Shown piece after piece: positions 25,864 through 39,073 of a stretch of 64,000 bases of DNA (within the stretch, counting starts at the first letter, position 1; every line of letters starts with the position of its first letter). The notes below the pieces were generated by a model. The model searched no databases, had not been told where the DNA came from, and saw only the letters and a list, made by a program, of their open reading frames with translations. Source of the DNA: Terriglobia bacterium (GTDB lineage: Bacteria; Acidobacteriota; Terriglobia; Terriglobales; Acidobacteriaceae); the NCBI GenBank assembly GCA_020073495.1, contig JAIQFD010000002.1:310001-374000 (forward strand), in the 5' to 3' direction. Both the position numbers and the translations under genes were made by a program.

Positions 25864-26361
25864 ATGGTGCAAAAGCGGATCGACGATCACGCGGTGATCT
25901 CGCGCGACGCCATGCGCGAGGCCGAGGGGATCTTCCACAAACATCTGAAGAAGGTGGGGCTCAAGCAAACCGGGCAGCGGGACACCATCCTGCGGGCGTT
26001 CATTGAGACGCGCGAGCACCTGTCCACGGAAGAGCTGGCGCGGCTGGTGCGCAAGCGCGACGCGAAGATCGGCTACACGACCGTGTACCGGACGCTGAAG
26101 CTGCTGGCGGAGTGCGGACTGGCCAGCGAGGTGTCGTTCCACGACGGGGTCGCACGCTTCGAGCACCAGTACAACCGGCGCAGCCACCACCACATGGTCT
26201 GCACCGAGTGCGGCAGCTCGGTCGAGTTCTTCTCTCCCGAGGTGGACAAGATCGAACAGGAGATCGGGCGCAAGCACCACTACTTGACCACGCGGCATAC
26301 CTTCCAGGTGTATGGGGTCTGCGAAGACTGCCGCAAGAAGGGCTCGCGGAGACCGGCCTAA
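25864..26361 (+). CDS. Fur-family metal-dependent transcriptional regulator
   Basis: A 165-residue regulator with an N-terminal winged-helix domain (LKQTGQRDTILRAFIET, YTTVYRTLKLLAECGLA as recognition helix) and a C-terminal dimerisation domain. The structural zinc site is C113/C116 and C153/C156 (CTEC and CEDC). The HHHMVC segment and the later HHYLTTRHTF supply further metal ligands. It could be Fur, Zur or PerR; the sequence alone does not decide. A long N-terminal extension of about 20 residues precedes the first helix. Confidence 0.88.
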   Translation: MVQKRIDDHAVISRDAMREAEGIFHKHLKKVGLKQTGQRDTILRAFIETREHLSTEELARLVRKRDAKIGYTTVYRTLKLLAECGLASEVSFHDGVARFEHQYNRRSHHHMVCTECGSSVEFFSPEVDKIEQEIGRKHHYLTTRHTFQVYGVCEDCRKKGSRRPA

Positions 26362-28682: not shown

Positions 28683-28858
28683 AGCCGACTCCCCACACGA
28701 GCCGATCCGAATGTAGGGCTGGAATGCCCTAGCACCGATTATGAAGATTGGGTGGGTAGGTGCGCAAGTGGCGAGCTTGTGCGATAAAAGGTGTGACTTG
28801 TTGGCGACCGGTGAATCGCATGGGTAAGCCCCGGAGTTTCGGGGGGAAGGAGCTGATC

Positions 28859-29344
28859 ATGGGCGACGTCGTCTATGTCTCTAAGTCACGCATCGAGCGC
28901 AAGGCCGGGCCGGTGCGGATCGCGTACCTGCCGGGAGAAAAGAATCCGGTGACCTTCAGCGTGCACGGTGCGATCGCGGAACACTACAAGATGGACCCGG
29001 CGAAGATCGGTGAGCCGCACACGTCGACCATCGACTACGTCATCGCCGCAACTGGGGGTTGAATGATGGGCACCTTCGCAGGCGCGCTGGAGGCGCGCCA
29101 GATCGATGCCAGCGGCGGCCGGCTGGTGGCCGACGTCACCGGCGAGGTGGAGAGGGAAGAAGGGGTGCTGGTGATCCGGCGCATTCATGTGGCCATGAAG
29201 GTGGCGGCGCCGGAGTCGTCGCGGGAGACGGTGGAGCGGGTGCACGGCCTGTACGCGATGCGCTGCCCGCTCTATCGGACGCTGCACAAGGCGATCCAGC
29301 TCACGTCGTCGTACGAGCTGGTGGCCGCAGCCAGCCCGTCCTGA
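28859..29344 (+). CDS. OsmC-family peroxidase, candidate selenoprotein (in-frame TGA = Sec68)
   Basis: Two same-frame segments, 28859-29059 (67 residues) and 29063-29344 (93 residues), are separated only by a TGA at 29060-29062. Together they make a 161-residue protein of normal OsmC length. The TGA falls where the peroxidatic cysteine lies in OsmC (STIDYVIAATGG-U-MMGTFAGALEAR aligns with the AAC-F/S-M-A-L region); the second, resolving cysteine is present in YAMRCPLYRTLHKAI. ATG at 28859 has AAGGAG six bases upstream. A SECIS-like hairpin begins 18 bases after the TGA. OsmC-like selenoproteins are known. Alternatives are a nonsense mutation or two genes; neither explains the exact position. 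Role: hydroperoxide reduction. Confidence 0.8.
29069..29110 (+). promoter_or_regulatory. Candidate bacterial SECIS element
   Basis: The upper stem GGCGCGC (29081-29087) pairs perfectly with GCGCGCC (29093-29099) around a UGGAG loop whose second base is G. Lower pairings UCG/CGA and GGCA/UGCC can extend it to 29069-29110. The loop starts 25 bases after the TGA, within the 16-37 base range described for bacterial SECIS elements. Confidence 0.7.
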
Positions 29345-29373: not shown

Positions 29374-29450
29374 GGCCCCGTAGCTCAGATGGATAGAGCA
29401 ACGGTTTCCTAAACCGTTTGTCGGCAGTTCGAATCTGCCCGGGGCCTCCA
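29374..29450 (+). tRNA. tRNA-Arg (anticodon CCT)
   Basis: A full cloverleaf can be drawn: acceptor GGCCCCG/CGGGGCC, D arm GCTCAGATGGATAGAGC, anticodon arm ACGGT-TTCCTAA-ACCGT with anticodon CCT, and T arm GGCAG-TTCGAAT-CTGCC. The 3' CCA is encoded. Its last 30 bases are partly repeated at 39127-39156. Confidence 0.95.
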
Positions 29451-29650
29451 GACTTCTCATTCCACAGCGATCAGTTGCATCACCGCGTTGGCCCTGGGAG
29501 ATGGCTCCCCGGAAGCATCTAACCATAGGCCCTTCAGGTACTTCCGTCACCTTGTCAGGATAGTTCGGCGATTGACAGCGACTCCCGCACGGAACATACT
29601 CAAAAATCGGTCACTCCCTCAAACCAAGCCCCCGAACGATTGAGGATTTG

Positions 29651-32600
29651 ATGTCCGGCGCTTCCGCGGGTTCGTCCAGGTCCCTAATCGTCGTTTTCCT
29701 GCTCCTGCTGGTCGCACTCCCAAGCCTCGGACAGGGAACGCGTCCCGCCAAGGAAGGCGAGGATGCAGGCGAGCGCGACCGCCCCGCTGAACGCGAGCGC
29801 TACTTCCGCCGCGGACGCACTCTGCGCGGAGAGTCCGGCGCTGCACTCCGCCACCGCGCCTACCAGCAGAAGCTGAGCAAGCGTGCGCAGTCGCAGGCGT
29901 CACCGCCCTCCACCCAGGCCCCCGCCTCACAACCTTCAGCGCCCACTCAGGGCACACCCGCCGGATCTCCGTGGGAAAGCCTCGGTCCGGCGCCCATCGG
30001 CGTGGACCCAAGCTCCGGCCAGGATTTTGGCGTCAATTCCGGCCGCGTCACTACGGTGGTAGTGGACCAGAACGATGCGAGCGGGAACACCGTATACGTC
30101 GGCGGGGCCTACGGAGGAGTGTGGAAGTCCACCAACGCCGCCAATCCCAGCCCCGCAAACGTGCAGTGGACGCCGCTCATCGACGACCAGCCCACCCTGG
30201 CCGTCGGGGCCATCGCCCTTAAGCCCGATGACAGCAACACCATCCTGGTGGGCACCGGCGAGTCCAACAGCAGCGGCGACTCCTACTACGGCCTCGGCAT
30301 CCTCCGATCCACCGACGGCGGCAACACCTGGGAGCTGATCACCTCCGCCGACAACGGCACCAAGTCGTTCAAGGGTCTGGCCTTCTCCAAGATCGCGTTC
30401 TCCACCGACAACACCAGCCTGGTGGTCGCCTCGACCACCAACAGCAACTCCGGCACGCTCGGCATCGACACCAGCAATATTCGCGGGATCTACTACTCCA
30501 CCGACGCCGGGGCCACCTGGCAATACGCCGGTGTGCAGGACAGCGGCGTCACCATCACGCCCGCCAGCACCAGCTCGGTCATCTACCATCGCACCCTGCA
30601 CAAATTTTTCGCCGCCGTCCGCTTCCACGGGATCTATTCCTCGGTGGACGGCGTCACCTGGTCGCGCCTGGCAATCCAGCCCGGGGGAGCAGTCCTCTCC
30701 ACCACCGCCTGCCCGCCGGCGGTGTTGACCACTTGCCCCATCCAGCGAGGCGAGATCGCCATCCAGCCGGTCACCGGCGACCTCTACGTCTGGTACATAG
30801 ATGGCAACCTGAAAGACCGAGGAATCTTCAAAACCAGCAACGGCGGCAGCACCTGGCTGACAGTCGGCACAAGCGGGATCGATAGCTGCGGAGACCAGGG
30901 CGGATGCGGCACTATCGACCAGGGCGACTATGACCTCGAGATCGCCGCCGTGCCTAACGGCACTGGCACCGACCTCTACGCCGGGGCCATCAATATCTAC
31001 AAGTGCTCTCTCGCGCAGAACGCGTCGAGTTGCACCTCGTGGTTGAATCTGACCCACGTGTACGGCTGCACCGTGGAGGGCGCTCCCGCGCACGTCCACC
31101 CCGACCAGCATTCCCTCAGCTTCCCGCTGCAGAACCCGAACCTCATCTACTTTGGCCACGACGGCGGCGTGAGCCGCGCCCTGAACGGACCGGGGCTGCT
31201 CGGCGGCACGTGCAGCAGTCATAATGCCTTCGATGACCTGAGCGGCACGCTCGGATCCCTCACCGAGTTCGTGTCGTTTTCCCAACATCCTACCGACGAC
31301 AGCACCGTGCTCGGCGGCGCGCAGGACGTCGGCTCCTCAGCCGTAGACTCCACCCATCCCGGCAGCGGCCTCGGCTGGATGAACGTGAACGCCGGCGACG
31401 GCGGCTTCAACGTCATCAACCCCAGCAATCCCCTGGAGTGGTTCACCGCCAACACCGATGTCTCCATCCAGCGCTGCACCCAGGGAATCAATTGCAATGC
31501 CGGCGTCGGCTTCGCCACCATCACCATCGGCAATTCGAAGGTCGGGAACGACCACGGCGATTTCTATACGCCCTACATCCTCGATCCGGGCATGCCCAGC
31601 CACATCATCATCGGCACTTGCCGCGTTTGGCGGGGCAACAGCGACGGCAGCGGATGGAGTTCGGCGAATGTTCTGACCACGAACTTTGACACCAGCACGG
31701 CAACGACCTGCACCGGTGCGGAGAACAATCTGGTGAGCGCCCTGGCTGCCGGCGGGCCGGTCAGCAACACCGGCACCGGCGGCTCCCAGGTGATCTATGC
31801 GGGTACCAATGCCGGCAATATCTTCGTCACCACCAATGCCAGCGGGGGAGCTTCGACATGGTCCATGCAGAACGTCACCCCCTTCGGATACAAGATTTCC
31901 GACATTGCCATTGACCCCAGCGATCCAACCGGCCGCACAGCCTACGCCACCCTCATGAACTTCGGCAGCGGACATGTGCTGAAGACCACGGCTGCCGGCT
32001 TCCCCTGGCAGAACATCACAGGCGACCTTCCCGACGCCCCGGCCGATTCCGTCGTCGTCGATCCCAACGACCCGACCATCATCTACGTCGGCACCGACGT
32101 CGGTGTCTTCGTCACTATGAATGGCGGCGTGAATTGGACGGAGTGGGGCACCGGATTGCCCAACGCGCCCGTCACCCGCATTCGAGGATTCGCCAGCCAG
32201 GACGGCTCCAAGAACAAGCTGCGCGCCTCCACCTACGGCCGCGGCGTCTGGCAGACCGACCTGTTCACCGCCACCCCCTTCCGCGCCAGCGTCTCACCGG
32301 CCAGCCTGGCCACCTTCGTGGGCGACCCGGCGACGTTCACCGTGACTGTCATCGCGCAGGCCAAGTTCAGCGGCACCGTGACCGTCAGTTGCGATGGCGG
32401 CGGCAATCCGCTTCCTTCCAGCTGCGTCGGCGCGACGGTCAGTCCAACGACATCGGGCACTCCGGTGACCGTCACTGCCTCCGATCCCTCGGTCGCGGAC
32501 TTCAGCTTCTCCCTCAAAGTAGTGGCCCCGGACGCCAACAGCACCACGGTGGAGCTGCCGGTCGTACTGCACACCGTGGACGTCTCCGTCTCAGCCCCGA

Positions 32601-35600
32601 GCCCCGCGTCGTTGGTCATCAAGCGAGGCACGATGTCGGTGCCGGTGGTGTTCACAGTTACAGGGTTCGGTCCGCTTCAGAGCACGACAACCTTGAGCTG
32701 CAGCGGGATGCCCAACGGCACTACCTGCGAGTTCCAGCCGTCACCGTTTCTTGATCTCGCGAACGGCAGCACGGCGGACGTCACCATGGTCGTGCACAGC
32801 ACCCTGACCGCAGACCTAGGAACATTCACTCCGTCGATCGTCGCCACCAACCAGCTTTTTCCTGCTGACACCCGCACCCAGACGTTCACGCTGGAAGTGG
32901 ACCTGAATCCGGACTTCACCCTGGCCGCGAATCCCACCATCCTCACACCGAACGCCTTGACTTCGACCATTACGGTCGCTTCCCGCGACGGGTACGCAGG
33001 GACTGTGAACTTGACCTGCTCGGTGGATCAACCGGGACCCATCTGCTCCATTCCGGTGACCCCGGTGAGCAGCTTCCCATCACAGGTCCACCTGACCATT
33101 AATCCCAACGGTACTGTGGCTGGCACCTTTGTTGTGACCGTTTCGGGCAACGACGGCAACCATACCAATTCGATCCAGTTGTCTCTGGTGTTTCCGGATT
33201 ACATCCTCTACATGCCCAATGGCACGACCTCCACCGGCTTCAGTGGCGGCACCGGAAGCTTCAGCTTCTACGTGGAAGGGATCAATTTCTACGCCGGCCA
33301 GGTCTTGATCAGCTGCGATAGCACCGCCATCGACCCATCGAGCACCTGCTCGGCGAACCCGCCGAGCGTCACCGGCCAGTTCACGAACGTCATCATCACT
33401 TACACCGTTCCGTCCTCAGTGACAGCAGGGAATTTCCCGGTCCACATCCTCACTCATGACGCAACCGGTGCGCCGGTCCATAATGCGGACATCACCGCCG
33501 GCATCCAGGGGTTCATCCTGGCGGCAATCCCGCCGACGAGTCTCACTGGGGTCAAGTTCGATACCTACCCGACCTACAATGTCGCGGCCACACCGACCGG
33601 GGGATATTCCGATTACATTGCCTTCCACTGCGCGGGCAACATTCCGTACTGCGGCAGCAGCAGTGGTTCGTTGGAAATGCTCTCCTCGCCTCGCACCATA
33701 CAGATTGTGACCCTTGTGCCTAGCGACGCCCCACCCGGAGTCTACGGGAACGGCACGATCCCCTTCACTCTCTCGGCGAGCCCACTACGCTTCCCTGCGG
33801 CGAGCGTCCCCGTCCCAGGCAATTACAGCCTGCAGATCCAGGACTTCCGCGTCACCATGCCGAACCGCAACATCAGTATGTTGGCCGGCACCTCGGCGCA
33901 GATCCCGCTGGTAGTCGAATCGTTCGGCACCAACGCCAGTTCCACGCTGGGATGCACCGGGGCGCCCCCGGGAGCGACCTGCACTTTCAACCCGTCCACG
34001 ATCGGGCCTGCGGGCGGCACGTCGGTGATGACGATAAGCGTTCCCTCGACCGCTCCGTTGACTAATTACGCGACGTACATCCGCACGACGGGCACGGCAG
34101 GCTCTCGTTCGATCTACTTCTACTTATGGCTGTTCAATCTTTCCCAGTCCGTCGCTCCCGTTTCCGCAAACGTGCCTCCAGGAGGTTCGGCGAACTTCAC
34201 CGTCAGCTATAGCGCACAGAATTTCTCCGGGCCCACTGCCGCGGTTGCCGTGGGCTGTGGCAATCTTCCCGCGGGCGCGAGTTGCACGGCGAATCCACCG
34301 CAGGTGGTTCCCGGCCAACCCTCGACGGTTACCTTGACCACCACTGCCGGCGTGACCCCGCCGACTTCCACCTTCAGCATCACTGGCACGGCGCTGGGCG
34401 TGACCAAGTCCACCTCCGTCACACTCCGTGTAGTGGATTTCTCCCTCACCAGCACCACCTCGTCCGCCTCCGTGAACGTTGGCACGATGACTCCCGTCTC
34501 GCTCCGTGCGACGGCGCAAAACGGCTTTAACTCGAGCGTCACGCTCACCTGTCCGCCCGTGGCGGCGGGGATCTCGTGCACATTCTCTCCAAGCACGTTC
34601 ACGCCGCTGTCGACGGGAACGGTTGTCAGCGCGAGCATCCTGACCACCGCGGCCACGCCGCCCGGCATCTACAGTGTGCCCCTGACAGCGACCGGCAACG
34701 GCGTCTCTCATGTCGTGAACTTCACGCTCACGGTCAAGGATTTCCACGTCAGCGTTCAGCCCTCCACCGCCATCACTCCGGTGGGCGGAGGCAAAGCGAC
34801 TTACGCACTCACACTCTTCGCCGACCAGGGCTTTAATTCGCTGGTCACGCTTTCCTGCGGCACGCCTCTGCCTACCGGCGTCACTTGCGCATTTGTCCCC
34901 GCGACCGTCACTCCCACGGTTGCGGGTGTCACATCGACCCTGACGGTCACCGTTCTTGCGACCACACCCAAGGCCAGCAACACTCTGACCATCAGAGCCA
35001 CCGCGAGCCCGCTGGTCGTCACCCAGAACGTCACTCTCATGACCGGCGCCGACTTCTCGCTTGCAACCGTCACCGGCCCGCAGACCGTGCAGCAGACACA
35101 GAACGCAGACTTCCACATCACCGCCACCGCCATCGGCGGAATGAACCAGCCGGTGACGCTCTCCTGCAGCGGACTGCCCGCAGGCGCGAGCTGCTCGTTC
35201 AGCCAGAACCCGGTCACGCCGCTCCCGGGCGGCCAGGACGTGGACGTCACCGTCATGACCACGCTCGCTTCCGTGCCCAATCCCTACACCATCACCGTGC
35301 AGGGCGCCGGCGGCGGCGTGACGCACACCACTCCGCTCTCGCTCAACCTGCAATTTTTCCCCGACTTCGTGCTCTCGAGCGGCGCGCCGCTGGCCGCCGT
35401 CCGTCCCGGCCAGACCGCGATGTTCAACGCCGCCTCCGGCAAGAATGGGGCCTTTACCTCGATCGTGGATCTGAGCTGCGCGGGTGCGCTGCCGGCGGGA
35501 GCAAGCTGCCAGGTGCAGCCCGCGAGCGTGGATTTCAGCGTTGCCGTTTCCGCGCCCGTCACCGTCAGCGCGACCACGCCGGGCAACACGCCGTTGGCCG

Positions 35601-38600
35601 ATTCGATGTTCTCGCTGCACGGCGTCGAGCGCGGCGGGACCAAGGTCCACGACCTCCCGCTGACCCTGCGGGTGAACGATTACCATCTCTCCGCGCCGAC
35701 GCCGCTGACCTTTGCTCAAACCGACACGGCGAGCTACACCGTCACCGTTTTCGCCGACAACCAGTTCTCCGGCCCGGTCACGCTGTCCTGCAACAATCTG
35801 CCGGCCAACGTCGGCCCCTGCAACTTCTCGGCGAATAACTTCGTGCCCGGCGCCGCTGGGACGCCGGTCACGGTCACCGCGCCCGTAGGCGCGAACGCCT
35901 CCGTCGGCCAGACTTCGTTCGATGTCGTCGTCAGCGGCGGCAACACCTCGCACACCGTCACCGAGCCGCTGAACCTCATCCTGGTGCAGGACTTCACCTT
36001 TGCCTCGCTGGCGGCGCCGATGCAGACCACCACGCCGGGCCAGACCATCGGCTGGCCTCTGGCGTTGACGCCGCTCAATAGCTTCGCCGCAAACATTTCC
36101 TTCAACATCGCCGGCTGCCCCGCCGGATTCGTGTGCTCGATCGCACCGCCGCCGCCCATCGCCATCTCGAACCAGATCCAGCAGGTGGCCGGCCTGCTCG
36201 TCCAGGTGCCCGCCACCGTCGCCGCGGTGAACAGCAACATCACCGTGACCGCCACCGATCCGGTGAGCGGCAAGACGCACGCCGTCACCGTCATCCTGTC
36301 CGTGCAGAATTTCTCTCTCACCATCTCGCCGACCTCCCGCTCCGTCCCGCCCGGCGCCGGAGGGATGTACAACGTCACTCTCACCGGCCTGAACGGCTTC
36401 ACCCAGCAGGTCCTGATCGCCTGCTTCAATCCGCCGGTGGGTGTGACCTGCTCGGCCGCCGTCGCCTCGCCCGGCAACACTGTCCCTCTGACCGTGATGA
36501 CGGCCTCGAACATCACCTCCGGGGCCAAGACGATCGCTATCGGCGGTGCTCTCGTGCTGGGCGCGCCGCCCAACCTCAATCTGCGGAACGTGTCGCTGGT
36601 GGTCTCGCCTTCGACCCCGACGTACTTCCTGACCACGACCGCCGCGACCAAGGTGGCGCCAGTCGGAACCAGCGCGATCTTCACCCTGAATGTCCGCGCC
36701 AGCACCACCACCTTTATCAGCCCGGTCAGCCTGAGTTGCCTCGGGAACCAGTTCAGCTGCGTGTTCAGCCCAGCGACAGTGACGCCCAACACGGTCGGCA
36801 CCAACCTGACCCTGACCGCGACTCCGGCCAACCCGCTCAGTCCCGGATCCTACCCGCTGACCGTGCAGGCGCTCGGCGGCGTGCAGGTCCGCCAGTTGGC
36901 GCTGACCATCAACGTCGCCGACTTTGCCATCGTCACCAACAGCTCGCCGCAGACGATCCTGAATCCCAACGGCGGCACGGCGAACTACGTCATCACCCTG
37001 TTCACCCAGAGCGGGTTCAACAGCGCTGTGACGCTCACATGTCCGGGGAATCCGGCGGGCGTGACCTGCGCGTTCGTCCCCGCGTCCGTCACTCCGACCC
37101 CTGCCGGCGCGACCTCGACCCTGACCATCACCACTACCGCGGCATCGCAGAAGGGCCAGCTCAACCTCACGGTTCAGGGCACAGGCGCCGGACTCACGCG
37201 TCAATTGCCCATCCAGCTCACCAACGGCCAGGACTTCCAACTGACGGCGACTCCGACGACGATCTCGGTGCCCCCGGGCGGCAACAACTCGATCTCTATC
37301 GCCGCCAACGCCATCGGTCCATTCGCAACGGCGGTCGTGCTTGCCTGCGTGGGAGTGAACCCGCCACCGGCCGGAGCTGGGATCAACTGCACTTTCCCGT
37401 CGGGCGCTATGGTCTCGCCGGGCTCCAGCGTACCGCTCCAGCTCAGTGCGACTTCGAATCTACCCGGAGGTACCTACACCCTGACCGTGCAGGGCATCGC
37501 CGACGGGCTCACGCACACCGTCCCGGTCACCGTGACCGTGCCCGACTACTCCCTCGGCCTGGCGCTCGCGCCTGGGTTCAGTGATGTGCTCGTCGGCGCA
37601 TCGCCAGGCATCAACGGGACGGTCACGGCCATCGCCGGATTCTCCGGAGCGATCAATCTGTCGTGCGTTGTGGCCGCGCCGCTGTCCTGCATCGGGTTCC
37701 CCGTTTCGCCGATCACACCCACGGCCAACGGCACGCCCTACAGCTTCAGCGTCACTGTGCCCAACGGCACAAGCCCTGGCGCCTATCCCTTGCAGATCAA
37801 CGCAGACGACGGCGCCGGCCACCTCCACACTGCGAACCTGAGCCTCGTGGTCAAGGATTTCTCCGTCGCGCTGAACACGGCCAGCGGCACCATCGAGGCC
37901 GGCACCTCGACCACTGTCAGCGGCGCCGTGGCGGGAATGAACGGGTTCATCGGAAACGTGCAGCTCTCCTGCGCGCCCGATCCGAATATCTCTTGCGTGT
38001 TCACTCCGCAGACCCTCGCCGCATCCGCCGCCGGGACGCCATTCTCGGTCACGATCGCAGCAGCGCCAGTGACTCCACCGAACCCCTACACGGTCAACAT
38101 CCAGGGGATCTCCGCGGGCGCGACTCGCGGCGCCTTATTCAACCTCACCGTCACTCCGACCAACGATTTCAACGTCGCCATCGCCCAGCCGTCACAGACG
38201 ATCAATGCCGGCGAAAGTGCGTCATTCGGCCTCCAGGTCACGCCGGTCAACGCTTTCAACGCGACCGTGACGATAAGCTGCACCGGCGCTCCGGCGGGCA
38301 TGACCTGCACACCTCCGGCGCCGTTCCCCGTGCCGCCCGGCGGCAACTTCAACGTGCCGGTGCAGACCACGCTCGGCGTGATCGCCCCCGGCACGTACAA
38401 CCTGACGCTCACCAGTTCGGGTGGCGGCAAGACGCACAACCAGGCGCTCTCGGTGACCGTGCAGGATTTCACTCTCTCGCTCACTCCGCCGTCGCAGCAG
38501 GTACTGCCCGGCTCGGGCGCGGATTACTCCGTTGCCATGAACTCGTCGAGCGGCTTCGCCAACACCGCTCAGCTGACCTGTTCCATCTCCGGATCTCCAG

Positions 38601-39073
38601 CCGGCGCTGCCTGCAAGTTCGACCAGAGCAGCCTGACAGCGGGCGGCTCGACCACTTTGCACGTCACAACCATTGCTGCAACTCCCCCCGGCCCCTATAC
38701 CATCACCGCGACCGCCACCTCGAACGTGACCGCACATAGCGCCACGGCAGCCATTCAGGTGGGCGGACCCGACTTCTCCCTCAGCTCCACGAGCACCTCT
38801 CTGAACTTAGCGCCCGGCGGTTCCGTCAAGGTGCCCGTCACCGTCACCGCGCTATTCGGATTCAATACAAGCGTCAGCTTCACGTGTTCGAGCAATGGCG
38901 CTGGCGTCTCCTGTACCGCCCCCGCAGGGCTTACACCCTCGCCCGCTGGCACGGTCATCTCGTTCCCCATGCGCGCCTCTGGTCATGCCCTGCCAAACAC
39001 GTACCAGATCGCACTCACCGGCACCGGCGGCGGCAAGACGCATACGCTCGGGTTCACGCTGAACGTCCAGTAG
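29651..39073 (+). CDS. Giant secreted beta-propeller and Ig-repeat surface protein, 3140 aa
   Basis: ATG at 29651 follows GAGG by five bases; a signal peptide (SLIVVFLLLLVALPSLGQG) comes next, then a charged linker of about 80 residues. Residues from about 110 to 870 form a propeller with BNR/sortilin-like repeats (STDGGNTWE, STDAGATWQ, TSNGGSTWL, MNGGVNWTEW). The remainder holds about 22 Ig-like units of about 100 residues, each starting with a DFxL-like strand and carrying a paired-cysteine motif like LSCxxLPxGxxCxFxP, and often ending before a GxxHxxxLxLxV strand. The units are diverged, not identical. It is probably a secreted or surface-attached adhesive or binding protein; no anchor is seen at its C-terminus. 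It lies between tRNA-Arg and a tRNA 3'-end copy. Confidence 0.9.
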   Translation: MSGASAGSSRSLIVVFLLLLVALPSLGQGTRPAKEGEDAGERDRPAERERYFRRGRTLRGESGAALRHRAYQQKLSKRAQSQASPPSTQAPASQPSAPTQGTPAGSPWESLGPAPIGVDPSSGQDFGVNSGRVTTVVVDQNDASGNTVYVGGAYGGVWKSTNAANPSPANVQWTPLIDDQPTLAVGAIALKPDDSNTILVGTGESNSSGDSYYGLGILRSTDGGNTWELITSADNGTKSFKGLAFSKIAFSTDNTSLVVASTTNSNSGTLGIDTSNIRGIYYSTDAGATWQYAGVQDSGVTITPASTSSVIYHRTLHKFFAAVRFHGIYSSVDGVTWSRLAIQPGGAVLSTTACPPAVLTTCPIQRGEIAIQPVTGDLYVWYIDGNLKDRGIFKTSNGGSTWLTVGTSGIDSCGDQGGCGTIDQGDYDLEIAAVPNGTGTDLYAGAINIYKCSLAQNASSCTSWLNLTHVYGCTVEGAPAHVHPDQHSLSFPLQNPNLIYFGHDGGVSRALNGPGLLGGTCSSHNAFDDLSGTLGSLTEFVSFSQHPTDDSTVLGGAQDVGSSAVDSTHPGSGLGWMNVNAGDGGFNVINPSNPLEWFTANTDVSIQRCTQGINCNAGVGFATITIGNSKVGNDHGDFYTPYILDPGMPSHIIIGTCRVWRGNSDGSGWSSANVLTTNFDTSTATTCTGAENNLVSALAAGGPVSNTGTGGSQVIYAGTNAGNIFVTTNASGGASTWSMQNVTPFGYKISDIAIDPSDPTGRTAYATLMNFGSGHVLKTTAAGFPWQNITGDLPDAPADSVVVDPNDPTIIYVGTDVGVFVTMNGGVNWTEWGTGLPNAPVTRIRGFASQDGSKNKLRASTYGRGVWQTDLFTATPFRASVSPASLATFVGDPATFTVTVIAQAKFSGTVTVSCDGGGNPLPSSCVGATVSPTTSGTPVTVTASDPSVADFSFSLKVVAPDANSTTVELPVVLHTVDVSVSAPSPASLVIKRGTMSVPVVFTVTGFGPLQSTTTLSCSGMPNGTTCEFQPSPFLDLANGSTADVTMVVHSTLTADLGTFTPSIVATNQLFPADTRTQTFTLEVDLNPDFTLAANPTILTPNALTSTITVASRDGYAGTVNLTCSVDQPGPICSIPVTPVSSFPSQVHLTINPNGTVAGTFVVTVSGNDGNHTNSIQLSLVFPDYILYMPNGTTSTGFSGGTGSFSFYVEGINFYAGQVLISCDSTAIDPSSTCSANPPSVTGQFTNVIITYTVPSSVTAGNFPVHILTHDATGAPVHNADITAGIQGFILAAIPPTSLTGVKFDTYPTYNVAATPTGGYSDYIAFHCAGNIPYCGSSSGSLEMLSSPRTIQIVTLVPSDAPPGVYGNGTIPFTLSASPLRFPAASVPVPGNYSLQIQDFRVTMPNRNISMLAGTSAQIPLVVESFGTNASSTLGCTGAPPGATCTFNPSTIGPAGGTSVMTISVPSTAPLTNYATYIRTTGTAGSRSIYFYLWLFNLSQSVAPVSANVPPGGSANFTVSYSAQNFSGPTAAVAVGCGNLPAGASCTANPPQVVPGQPSTVTLTTTAGVTPPTSTFSITGTALGVTKSTSVTLRVVDFSLTSTTSSASVNVGTMTPVSLRATAQNGFNSSVTLTCPPVAAGISCTFSPSTFTPLSTGTVVSASILTTAATPPGIYSVPLTATGNGVSHVVNFTLTVKDFHVSVQPSTAITPVGGGKATYALTLFADQGFNSLVTLSCGTPLPTGVTCAFVPATVTPTVAGVTSTLTVTVLATTPKASNTLTIRATASPLVVTQNVTLMTGADFSLATVTGPQTVQQTQNADFHITATAIGGMNQPVTLSCSGLPAGASCSFSQNPVTPLPGGQDVDVTVMTTLASVPNPYTITVQGAGGGVTHTTPLSLNLQFFPDFVLSSGAPLAAVRPGQTAMFNAASGKNGAFTSIVDLSCAGALPAGASCQVQPASVDFSVAVSAPVTVSATTPGNTPLADSMFSLHGVERGGTKVHDLPLTLRVNDYHLSAPTPLTFAQTDTASYTVTVFADNQFSGPVTLSCNNLPANVGPCNFSANNFVPGAAGTPVTVTAPVGANASVGQTSFDVVVSGGNTSHTVTEPLNLILVQDFTFASLAAPMQTTTPGQTIGWPLALTPLNSFAANISFNIAGCPAGFVCSIAPPPPIAISNQIQQVAGLLVQVPATVAAVNSNITVTATDPVSGKTHAVTVILSVQNFSLTISPTSRSVPPGAGGMYNVTLTGLNGFTQQVLIACFNPPVGVTCSAAVASPGNTVPLTVMTASNITSGAKTIAIGGALVLGAPPNLNLRNVSLVVSPSTPTYFLTTTAATKVAPVGTSAIFTLNVRASTTTFISPVSLSCLGNQFSCVFSPATVTPNTVGTNLTLTATPANPLSPGSYPLTVQALGGVQVRQLALTINVADFAIVTNSSPQTILNPNGGTANYVITLFTQSGFNSAVTLTCPGNPAGVTCAFVPASVTPTPAGATSTLTITTTAASQKGQLNLTVQGTGAGLTRQLPIQLTNGQDFQLTATPTTISVPPGGNNSISIAANAIGPFATAVVLACVGVNPPPAGAGINCTFPSGAMVSPGSSVPLQLSATSNLPGGTYTLTVQGIADGLTHTVPVTVTVPDYSLGLALAPGFSDVLVGASPGINGTVTAIAGFSGAINLSCVVAAPLSCIGFPVSPITPTANGTPYSFSVTVPNGTSPGAYPLQINADDGAGHLHTANLSLVVKDFSVALNTASGTIEAGTSTTVSGAVAGMNGFIGNVQLSCAPDPNISCVFTPQTLAASAAGTPFSVTIAAAPVTPPNPYTVNIQGISAGATRGALFNLTVTPTNDFNVAIAQPSQTINAGESASFGLQVTPVNAFNATVTISCTGAPAGMTCTPPAPFPVPPGGNFNVPVQTTLGVIAPGTYNLTLTSSGGGKTHNQALSVTVQDFTLSLTPPSQQVLPGSGADYSVAMNSSSGFANTAQLTCSISGSPAGAACKFDQSSLTAGGSTTLHVTTIAATPPGPYTITATATSNVTAHSATAAIQVGGPDFSLSSTSTSLNLAPGGSVKVPVTVTALFGFNTSVSFTCSSNGAGVSCTAPAGLTPSPAGTVISFPMRASGHALPNTYQIALTGTGGGKTHTLGFTLNVQ

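Follow-up and report, generated by a model that had tools for sequence, protein, structure and literature searches.

A single in-frame TGA (29060–29062) stands in a gene for an OsmC-family protein at 28859–29344 on the forward strand of the window, by which we mean the whole 64,000-nucleotide stretch of DNA that was analysed. Is this a damaged gene, a pair of short genes or one selenoprotein gene, and, if the last, is it covered by the OsmC-like selenoproteins already catalogued? An earlier note, made from the sequence alone, had proposed a selenocysteine-containing OsmC peroxidase with a SECIS hairpin shortly past the TGA. The read-through frame, the conserved UGA, the covarying hairpin, the selenocysteine (Sec) machinery and the cysteine found at the same place in relatives together argue, at the level of sequence, that this is a selenoprotein gene, neither a pseudogene nor two genes, into whose product we infer that selenium is incorporated.

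One reading frame across the TGA

The frame from 28859 to 29344 is preceded by a Shine-Dalgarno-like sequence, GGAAGGAG (28845–28852, forward strand), 6 bases upstream of the ATG at 28859, and it closes with the stop codon TGA at 29342–29344. Its only interruption is the TGA at 29060–29062; read through, it gives 161 residues with Sec (U) at residue 68, the peroxidatic position. The Pfam OsmC model (PF02566) matched the read-through protein with 45.9 bits (cut-off 27.5) over residues 54–149, and the OsmC domain therefore spans both sides of the TGA. This bears out the proposal that two same-frame segments of one OsmC protein are split only by that codon. All 8 of the further members of the branch that were scored also passed the PF02566 gathering score.

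The second conserved cysteine, which the earlier note had seen in RCPLYRTL, is present as Cys136 (TGC codon 29264–29266, forward strand) and is presumed to be the resolving cysteine. It is kept in 139 of the 142 non-redundant homologous rows that carry TGA; of the remaining three, L161 has TGN there, and the C-terminal part is missing from L038 and L098. His36, Asp59, Gly71 and Thr72 are invariant in these 142 rows, and Arg20 is found in 141. Ordinary OsmC rows have Cys at both catalytic columns (8/8), the places held in the window protein by U68 and C136.

Conservation of the TGA among homologues

We read the codon at the Sec column in fetched homologous loci. In the first set this codon was TGA in 132 rows and TGC or TGT in 8 (L044–L051, which had matched at 20–30 bits among 150 relatives). 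After loci from the phylum of G529 were added, including the second copy that occurs there, 164 of the 173 rows had TGA there, and the 9 others (L044–L051 and L182) had TGC or TGT and were ordinary Cys OsmCs by score. Duplicate fetches of one gene occur among the 173 rows, and the non-redundant TGA rows number 142. The TGA thus lies where the peroxidatic cysteine had been expected: position 68 is TGA in close homologues and Cys in OsmCs that are more distant.

The same picture was seen in the match tables, where a TGA inside the match was counted by eye, the exact site being read in the fetched loci only. Among the 150 relatives, TGA was present in 24 of the 25 matches of at least 88 bits, and the gene occurred in 22 genomes; the one exception (L238, in G086) is a shortened copy that reads TCA (Ser) there and passes into unrelated sequence, and G086 also carries a TGA copy beside it. 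Across 396 genomes of the window's own phylum, 32 of 33 matches of at least 65 bits had the TGA, the remaining one being a fragment beyond the site. The phylum of G529 (298 genomes) gave 145 of 147 matches above 50 bits, the other two being fragments that stop at the site or short of it; the phylum of G530 (40 genomes) gave 2 of 2, and the phylum of G535 (396 genomes) gave 42 of 50 matches of at least 90 bits. In a scan of GTDB genomes, from which the best 80 of 309 loci were taken, the titles of these 80 included Acidobacteria, Gemmatimonadetes, Calditrichia and Acidimicrobiia, titles that may be wrong.

Two divergent copies, scoring about 200 and about 120 bits and both with TGA (L186–L205), occur in many of the genomes sampled from the phylum of G529 (titled Gemmatimonadetes). 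Decayed copies of the gene also occur: L229 has TGA, TAG and TAA stops, and the shortened L238 has Ser at the site.

A conserved hairpin within the coding sequence

The putative SECIS element is a hairpin at 29081–29099 on the forward strand (GGCGCGC-UGGAG-GCGCGCC) that overlaps codons 75–81. Each feature described for it earlier was recovered: it starts 18 bases 3' of the TGA, has seven base pairs and the loop UGGAG, and carries a G in the first two loop bases. Published limits for bacterial SECIS elements, as given in a figure legend of a May 2026 inventory of selenoproteins, are a loop of 3–9 nt at 16–37 nt from the UGA, a stem of 4–16 bp, a G in the first two loop bases and a minimum free energy of at most −7.5 kcal/mol (PMC13188914). 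With a loop of 5 nt (3 if the U-G closes), 7–8 bp, UG as the first loop bases, 25 nt from UGA to loop and −14.5 kcal/mol, the window's hairpin falls inside these limits, including the distance range that the earlier note had invoked. None of 200 shuffled sequences folded equally well. With extra flank the hairpin was less distinct (z −2.9 at 29 nt and −0.6 at 49 nt), and since z weakens in this way with longer flank, the case for a SECIS rests on comparison and not on energy.

In the 102 distinct post-TGA windows of the TGA rows, the inner six pairs are formed in 94–100, the loop is UGG in all 102, and the outermost pair is formed in 51. Synonymous variation points to the same place: among 75 degenerate codon sites in the 142 non-redundant TGA rows, the four least variable are codons 77, 79, 75 and 76, all of them hairpin sites. 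The codon for Leu77 is CTG in 141 rows and TTG in one. Codons 76 and 79 occur as GCG/GCG in 88 rows, GCA/GTG in 27, GTG/GCA in 17 and other combinations in 10; from these counts, the third base of the Ala76 codon depends on which residue, Ala or Val, stands at 79. In 9 of the 142 rows at least one of the two pairs at codons 76 and 79 is missing, and L041, L042 and L157 fold poorly.

A covariation test was run on 73 of 131 distinct windows with 500 shuffles. Changes on both sides filled 22 cells against 4.3 in the shuffles (0/500 as high), the covariation score was 0.214 against 0.137 (0/500 as high), and 86% of cells paired, against at most 57% when the register was slid. Two of the five measures do not exceed the shuffles in these 73 windows: pairs changed on both sides (3 versus 2.2, with 187/500 as high) and further pair types (7 versus 7.3, with 414/500 as high). 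Few historical events underlie the covariation (7 and 9 state changes on the tree), and the sign test for independent pairs has 2 supported pairs each, too few. Since such a SECIS is embedded in the coding sequence and covaries with it, the RNA couples amino-acid changes at residue 76 to those at residue 79, which makes this residue pair a natural test of SECIS recognition.

The 24 distinct TGA windows that were added late (2 from the phylum of G530 and 22 from that of G535) were more varied, with the usual stem in 14 and the loops UGG in 17, UCG in 5 and UGU in 1, plus one broken copy. Five TGA copies (L208, L211, L214, L215 and L216) have GCC/GCA or GCT/GCA at codons 76 and 79, four of them with the loop UCG, which suggests a shifted SECIS in this group.

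Selenocysteine machinery

The earlier note had named a search for the Sec machinery as a check, and in the window's own genome every component was found: selA (566 bits), selB (337 bits, over the cut-off, and 373 with a C-terminal piece), selD (376 bits) and a tRNA-Sec with the anticodon tca. An in-frame TGA occurs close to the start of the selD gene itself (L010 1501–2424; C4:415672–416595 of the own genome), in the context KAAG-U-ASKLSP, and SelD is therefore a probable second selenoprotein of this genome.

Of the 150 relatives, 111 have selA over the cut-off. All 22 that bear the OsmC selenoprotein gene have a selA match, 21 of them over the cut-off and one (G133) a fragment, and the association of the two genes gave a Fisher p of 0.001 if two fragments are scored as selA and of 0.008 if they are not, values that are not corrected for kinship. 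G001, a genome of the same genus, has neither the OsmC selenoprotein gene nor selA at E ≤ 0.001. Among distant genomes, chosen from the best 80 of 309 loci, selB was over the cut-off in 10 of 10.

Predicted fold and proposed mechanism

We predicted the structure with AlphaFold2 from 43 sequences, with Sec entered as Cys, and obtained a confident model (pLDDT 93.4, pTM 0.87). The top match to this model was 2onf both in Foldseek (E 5e-9, TM 0.73) and in VIA (Z 14.8 over 139 residues at 2.2 Å), where 1ml8 (YhfA) reached Z 13.9. Among the top 33 rows in VIA (Z from 14.8 down to 8.6, identity 6–22%), 30 bear titles that name OsmC, Ohr, hydroperoxide-resistance or osmotic-stress proteins, and the other three, 1ml8, 2egt and 2ql8, have general titles. 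Rows at Z 8.2 or below are other proteins, except the OsmC-like 3cje (Z 7.8). The model thus predicts a protein with the OsmC/Ohr fold.

We consider it highly probable that the locus encodes one protein in which SelB-aided Sec insertion occurs at UGA68, that the product is of OsmC/Ohr type with putative hydroperoxide chemistry at Sec68 and Cys136, and that it belongs to a distinct branch with the motif U-x-x-G-T. The gene would be translated into a single protein: SelB bound to the hairpin at 29081–29099 would help the ribosome at UGA68, where selenocysteine carried by tRNA-Sec would be inserted, and the product would fold as an OsmC/Ohr-type protein. Sec68 would then attack the O–O bond of an organic hydroperoxide to give a selenenic acid, Cys136 would resolve this to a selenenyl-sulfide, and a thiol donor would reduce the latter. 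In OsmC/Ohr proteins the thiol donors are dihydrolipoyl proteins. We infer the Sec insertion, the reaction, the substrate and the reductant, and the word peroxidase is borrowed by analogy from the family.

Cysteine forms and the direction of change

In the phylum of G535 there are 8 relatives whose frame is free of a stop, 7 of them with TGC or TGT at the Sec site and 1 with GAC, and so the classical sign of a selenoprotein, a pair of Sec and Cys homologues, is present. The Cys relatives (L218–L224) are like the Sec rows in belonging to one branch and in having the motif C-L-x-G-T in 6 of 7, and they differ in their TGC or TGT codon and in the UGG loop, which occurs in 0 of 7. The exception among the stop-free relatives, L225 (in G1353), carries Asp (GAC) in place of either Sec or Cys, and Ser at position 136; this Asp form has the UGG loop.

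Stop-free relatives and Sec rows together formed one branch against 13 other OsmCs (support 96/92, with the bootstrap not settled). In the best tree the stop-free relatives lie among the Sec rows, and a single Sec clade was not rejected (p-AU 0.33). We put forward tentatively, at somewhat less than even chances, that this is an old and distinct OsmC branch that as a rule uses Sec, possibly as its ancestral state, the Cys forms being later replacements. If so, methods that seek Sec/Cys pairs would tend to miss the branch, and it could be a main peroxide-defence selenoprotein of Acidobacteriota and Gemmatimonadota.

Genomic neighborhood

In a genomic neighborhood analysis of 81 loci, no neighbouring family was found at more than 11, and the largest neighbour cluster looks like an out-of-frame translation of GC-rich DNA. 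With no neighbour widely conserved, the OsmC selenoprotein gene appears to act on its own. In 6 loci titled Acidobacteria the upstream DNA encodes a protein that combines DsbD_N and AhpC-TSA domains, the names being taken from L052. In the window, a gene for a FUR-family regulator (25864–26361, 107.8 bits), possibly a peroxide sensor, lies 2.5 kb upstream of the OsmC gene, and a tRNA-Arg gene (anticodon cct; 29374–29450, forward strand) starts 29 bases past its end. Farther downstream, at 29648–39073 on the forward strand, is an open reading frame of 3141 residues with many similar-looking repeated segments, of which a 733-residue piece had no Pfam match. The plasmid search gave no match, and the Rfam search gave none apart from the tRNA and a single hit that scored far under its gathering threshold.

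Alternative explanations

An ordinary Cys OsmC gene whose TGC or TGT had become TGA, by decay or by sequencing error, would differ from the observed gene by a single base, and copies such as L229 and L238 show that the gene does decay in other genomes. We give this explanation almost no weight: 164 rows drawn from many genomes share the TGA at this column, both flanks are conserved, and the hairpin is conserved and covaries. It is very improbable, too, that two short proteins are made, one stopping at the TGA and the other restarting at the adjacent ATG (TGAATG). The window does have ATG ATG directly 3' of the TGA, where a 93-codon open reading frame begins at 29063, and codon 69 is ATG in 68 of the 142 TGA rows; in 35 of the 142, however, it is CTC, CTA or CTT, unusual starts that make reinitiation unlikely, while the OsmC domain and the predicted fold cross the junction and the genes co-occur with the Sec machinery. 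The pseudogene, sequencing-error, two-gene and reinitiation readings were accordingly rejected on the conserved TGA and on codon 69.

A further alternative accepts the UGA as genuine and has it read without Sec, by near-cognate read-through, or has it act mostly as a stop that leaves a main product of 67 residues. The loss of SECIS pairing in a minority of homologues would fit such a reading. Its chance is nevertheless slight in our view, as the UGA is accompanied by a conserved SECIS-like structure and by selA and selB, and the residue found in the stop-free relatives is Cys in 7 of 8 and Asp in 1 of 8.

Relation to known OsmC selenoproteins

That OsmC-like selenoproteins are known as a family, as the earlier note had stated, is correct. 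Three sequences from the Sargasso Sea were described in 2005 with the family PF02566, the motif UxxT and a predicted bacterial SECIS downstream (PMC1088965), and a table row of the GOS survey gives OsmC-like, UxxT and the figures 5, 3 and 161 (PMC2398784). The May 2026 inventory, whose Table 1 has 119 prokaryotic families and subfamilies, gives as its one OsmC entry there a UxxT protein of PF02566, MCS5647933.1, and it places proteins with different Sec motifs in separate subfamilies (PMC13188914).

Could the gene simply be a member of this catalogued family? It is the same Pfam family with Sec, and the NCBIfam model NF041052 (OsmC_like_Se), which to judge by its name models the UxxT family, was weakly touched by 17 of the 22 members of A1 (best E 2.1e-4). 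Against this, the window protein scored 15.6 bits with a cut-off of 95, the 8 further members scored at most 27.9 bits (L158), and none of 250 genomes from the window's class passed the cut-off. Gly, not Thr, stands at +3 of the Sec and Thr at +4 in all 142 non-redundant TGA rows, so that the motif is U-x-x-G-T and not UxxT. Membership in the catalogued family is thus unlikely. The U-x-x-G-T branch is absent from the table of the May 2026 inventory (PMC13188914) and was not found among the published articles that we searched. On the motif, the low NF041052 scores and the motif rule of the inventory, we therefore call it a new subfamily of OsmC-like selenoproteins, one that appears to be set apart from the UxxT references (MCS5647933.1 and MBR72571.1) by its motif.

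The branch is widespread, and the catalogue and protein-family models that we checked do not cover it; it adds a well-supported selenoprotein branch to those in the May 2026 inventory. The branch is carried by phyla abundant in soils. Automatic annotation would probably split or shorten such genes.

The window protein can be set beside known systems. It resembles the OsmC, Ohr and YhfA peroxidases (PDB 1nye, 1qwi, 1ml8, 2onf and 1n2f) in its predicted fold and in the two active-site positions, and it differs from them in having Sec in place of Cys and in sequence, our PDB sequence searches having matched no solved structure. Like the UxxT OsmC-like selenoprotein (PMC1088965), it belongs to the OsmC family, contains a predicted Sec and has a putative bacterial SECIS downstream of the Sec codon; the branch described here differs in its U-x-x-G-T motif and in scores far below the NF041052 cut-off.
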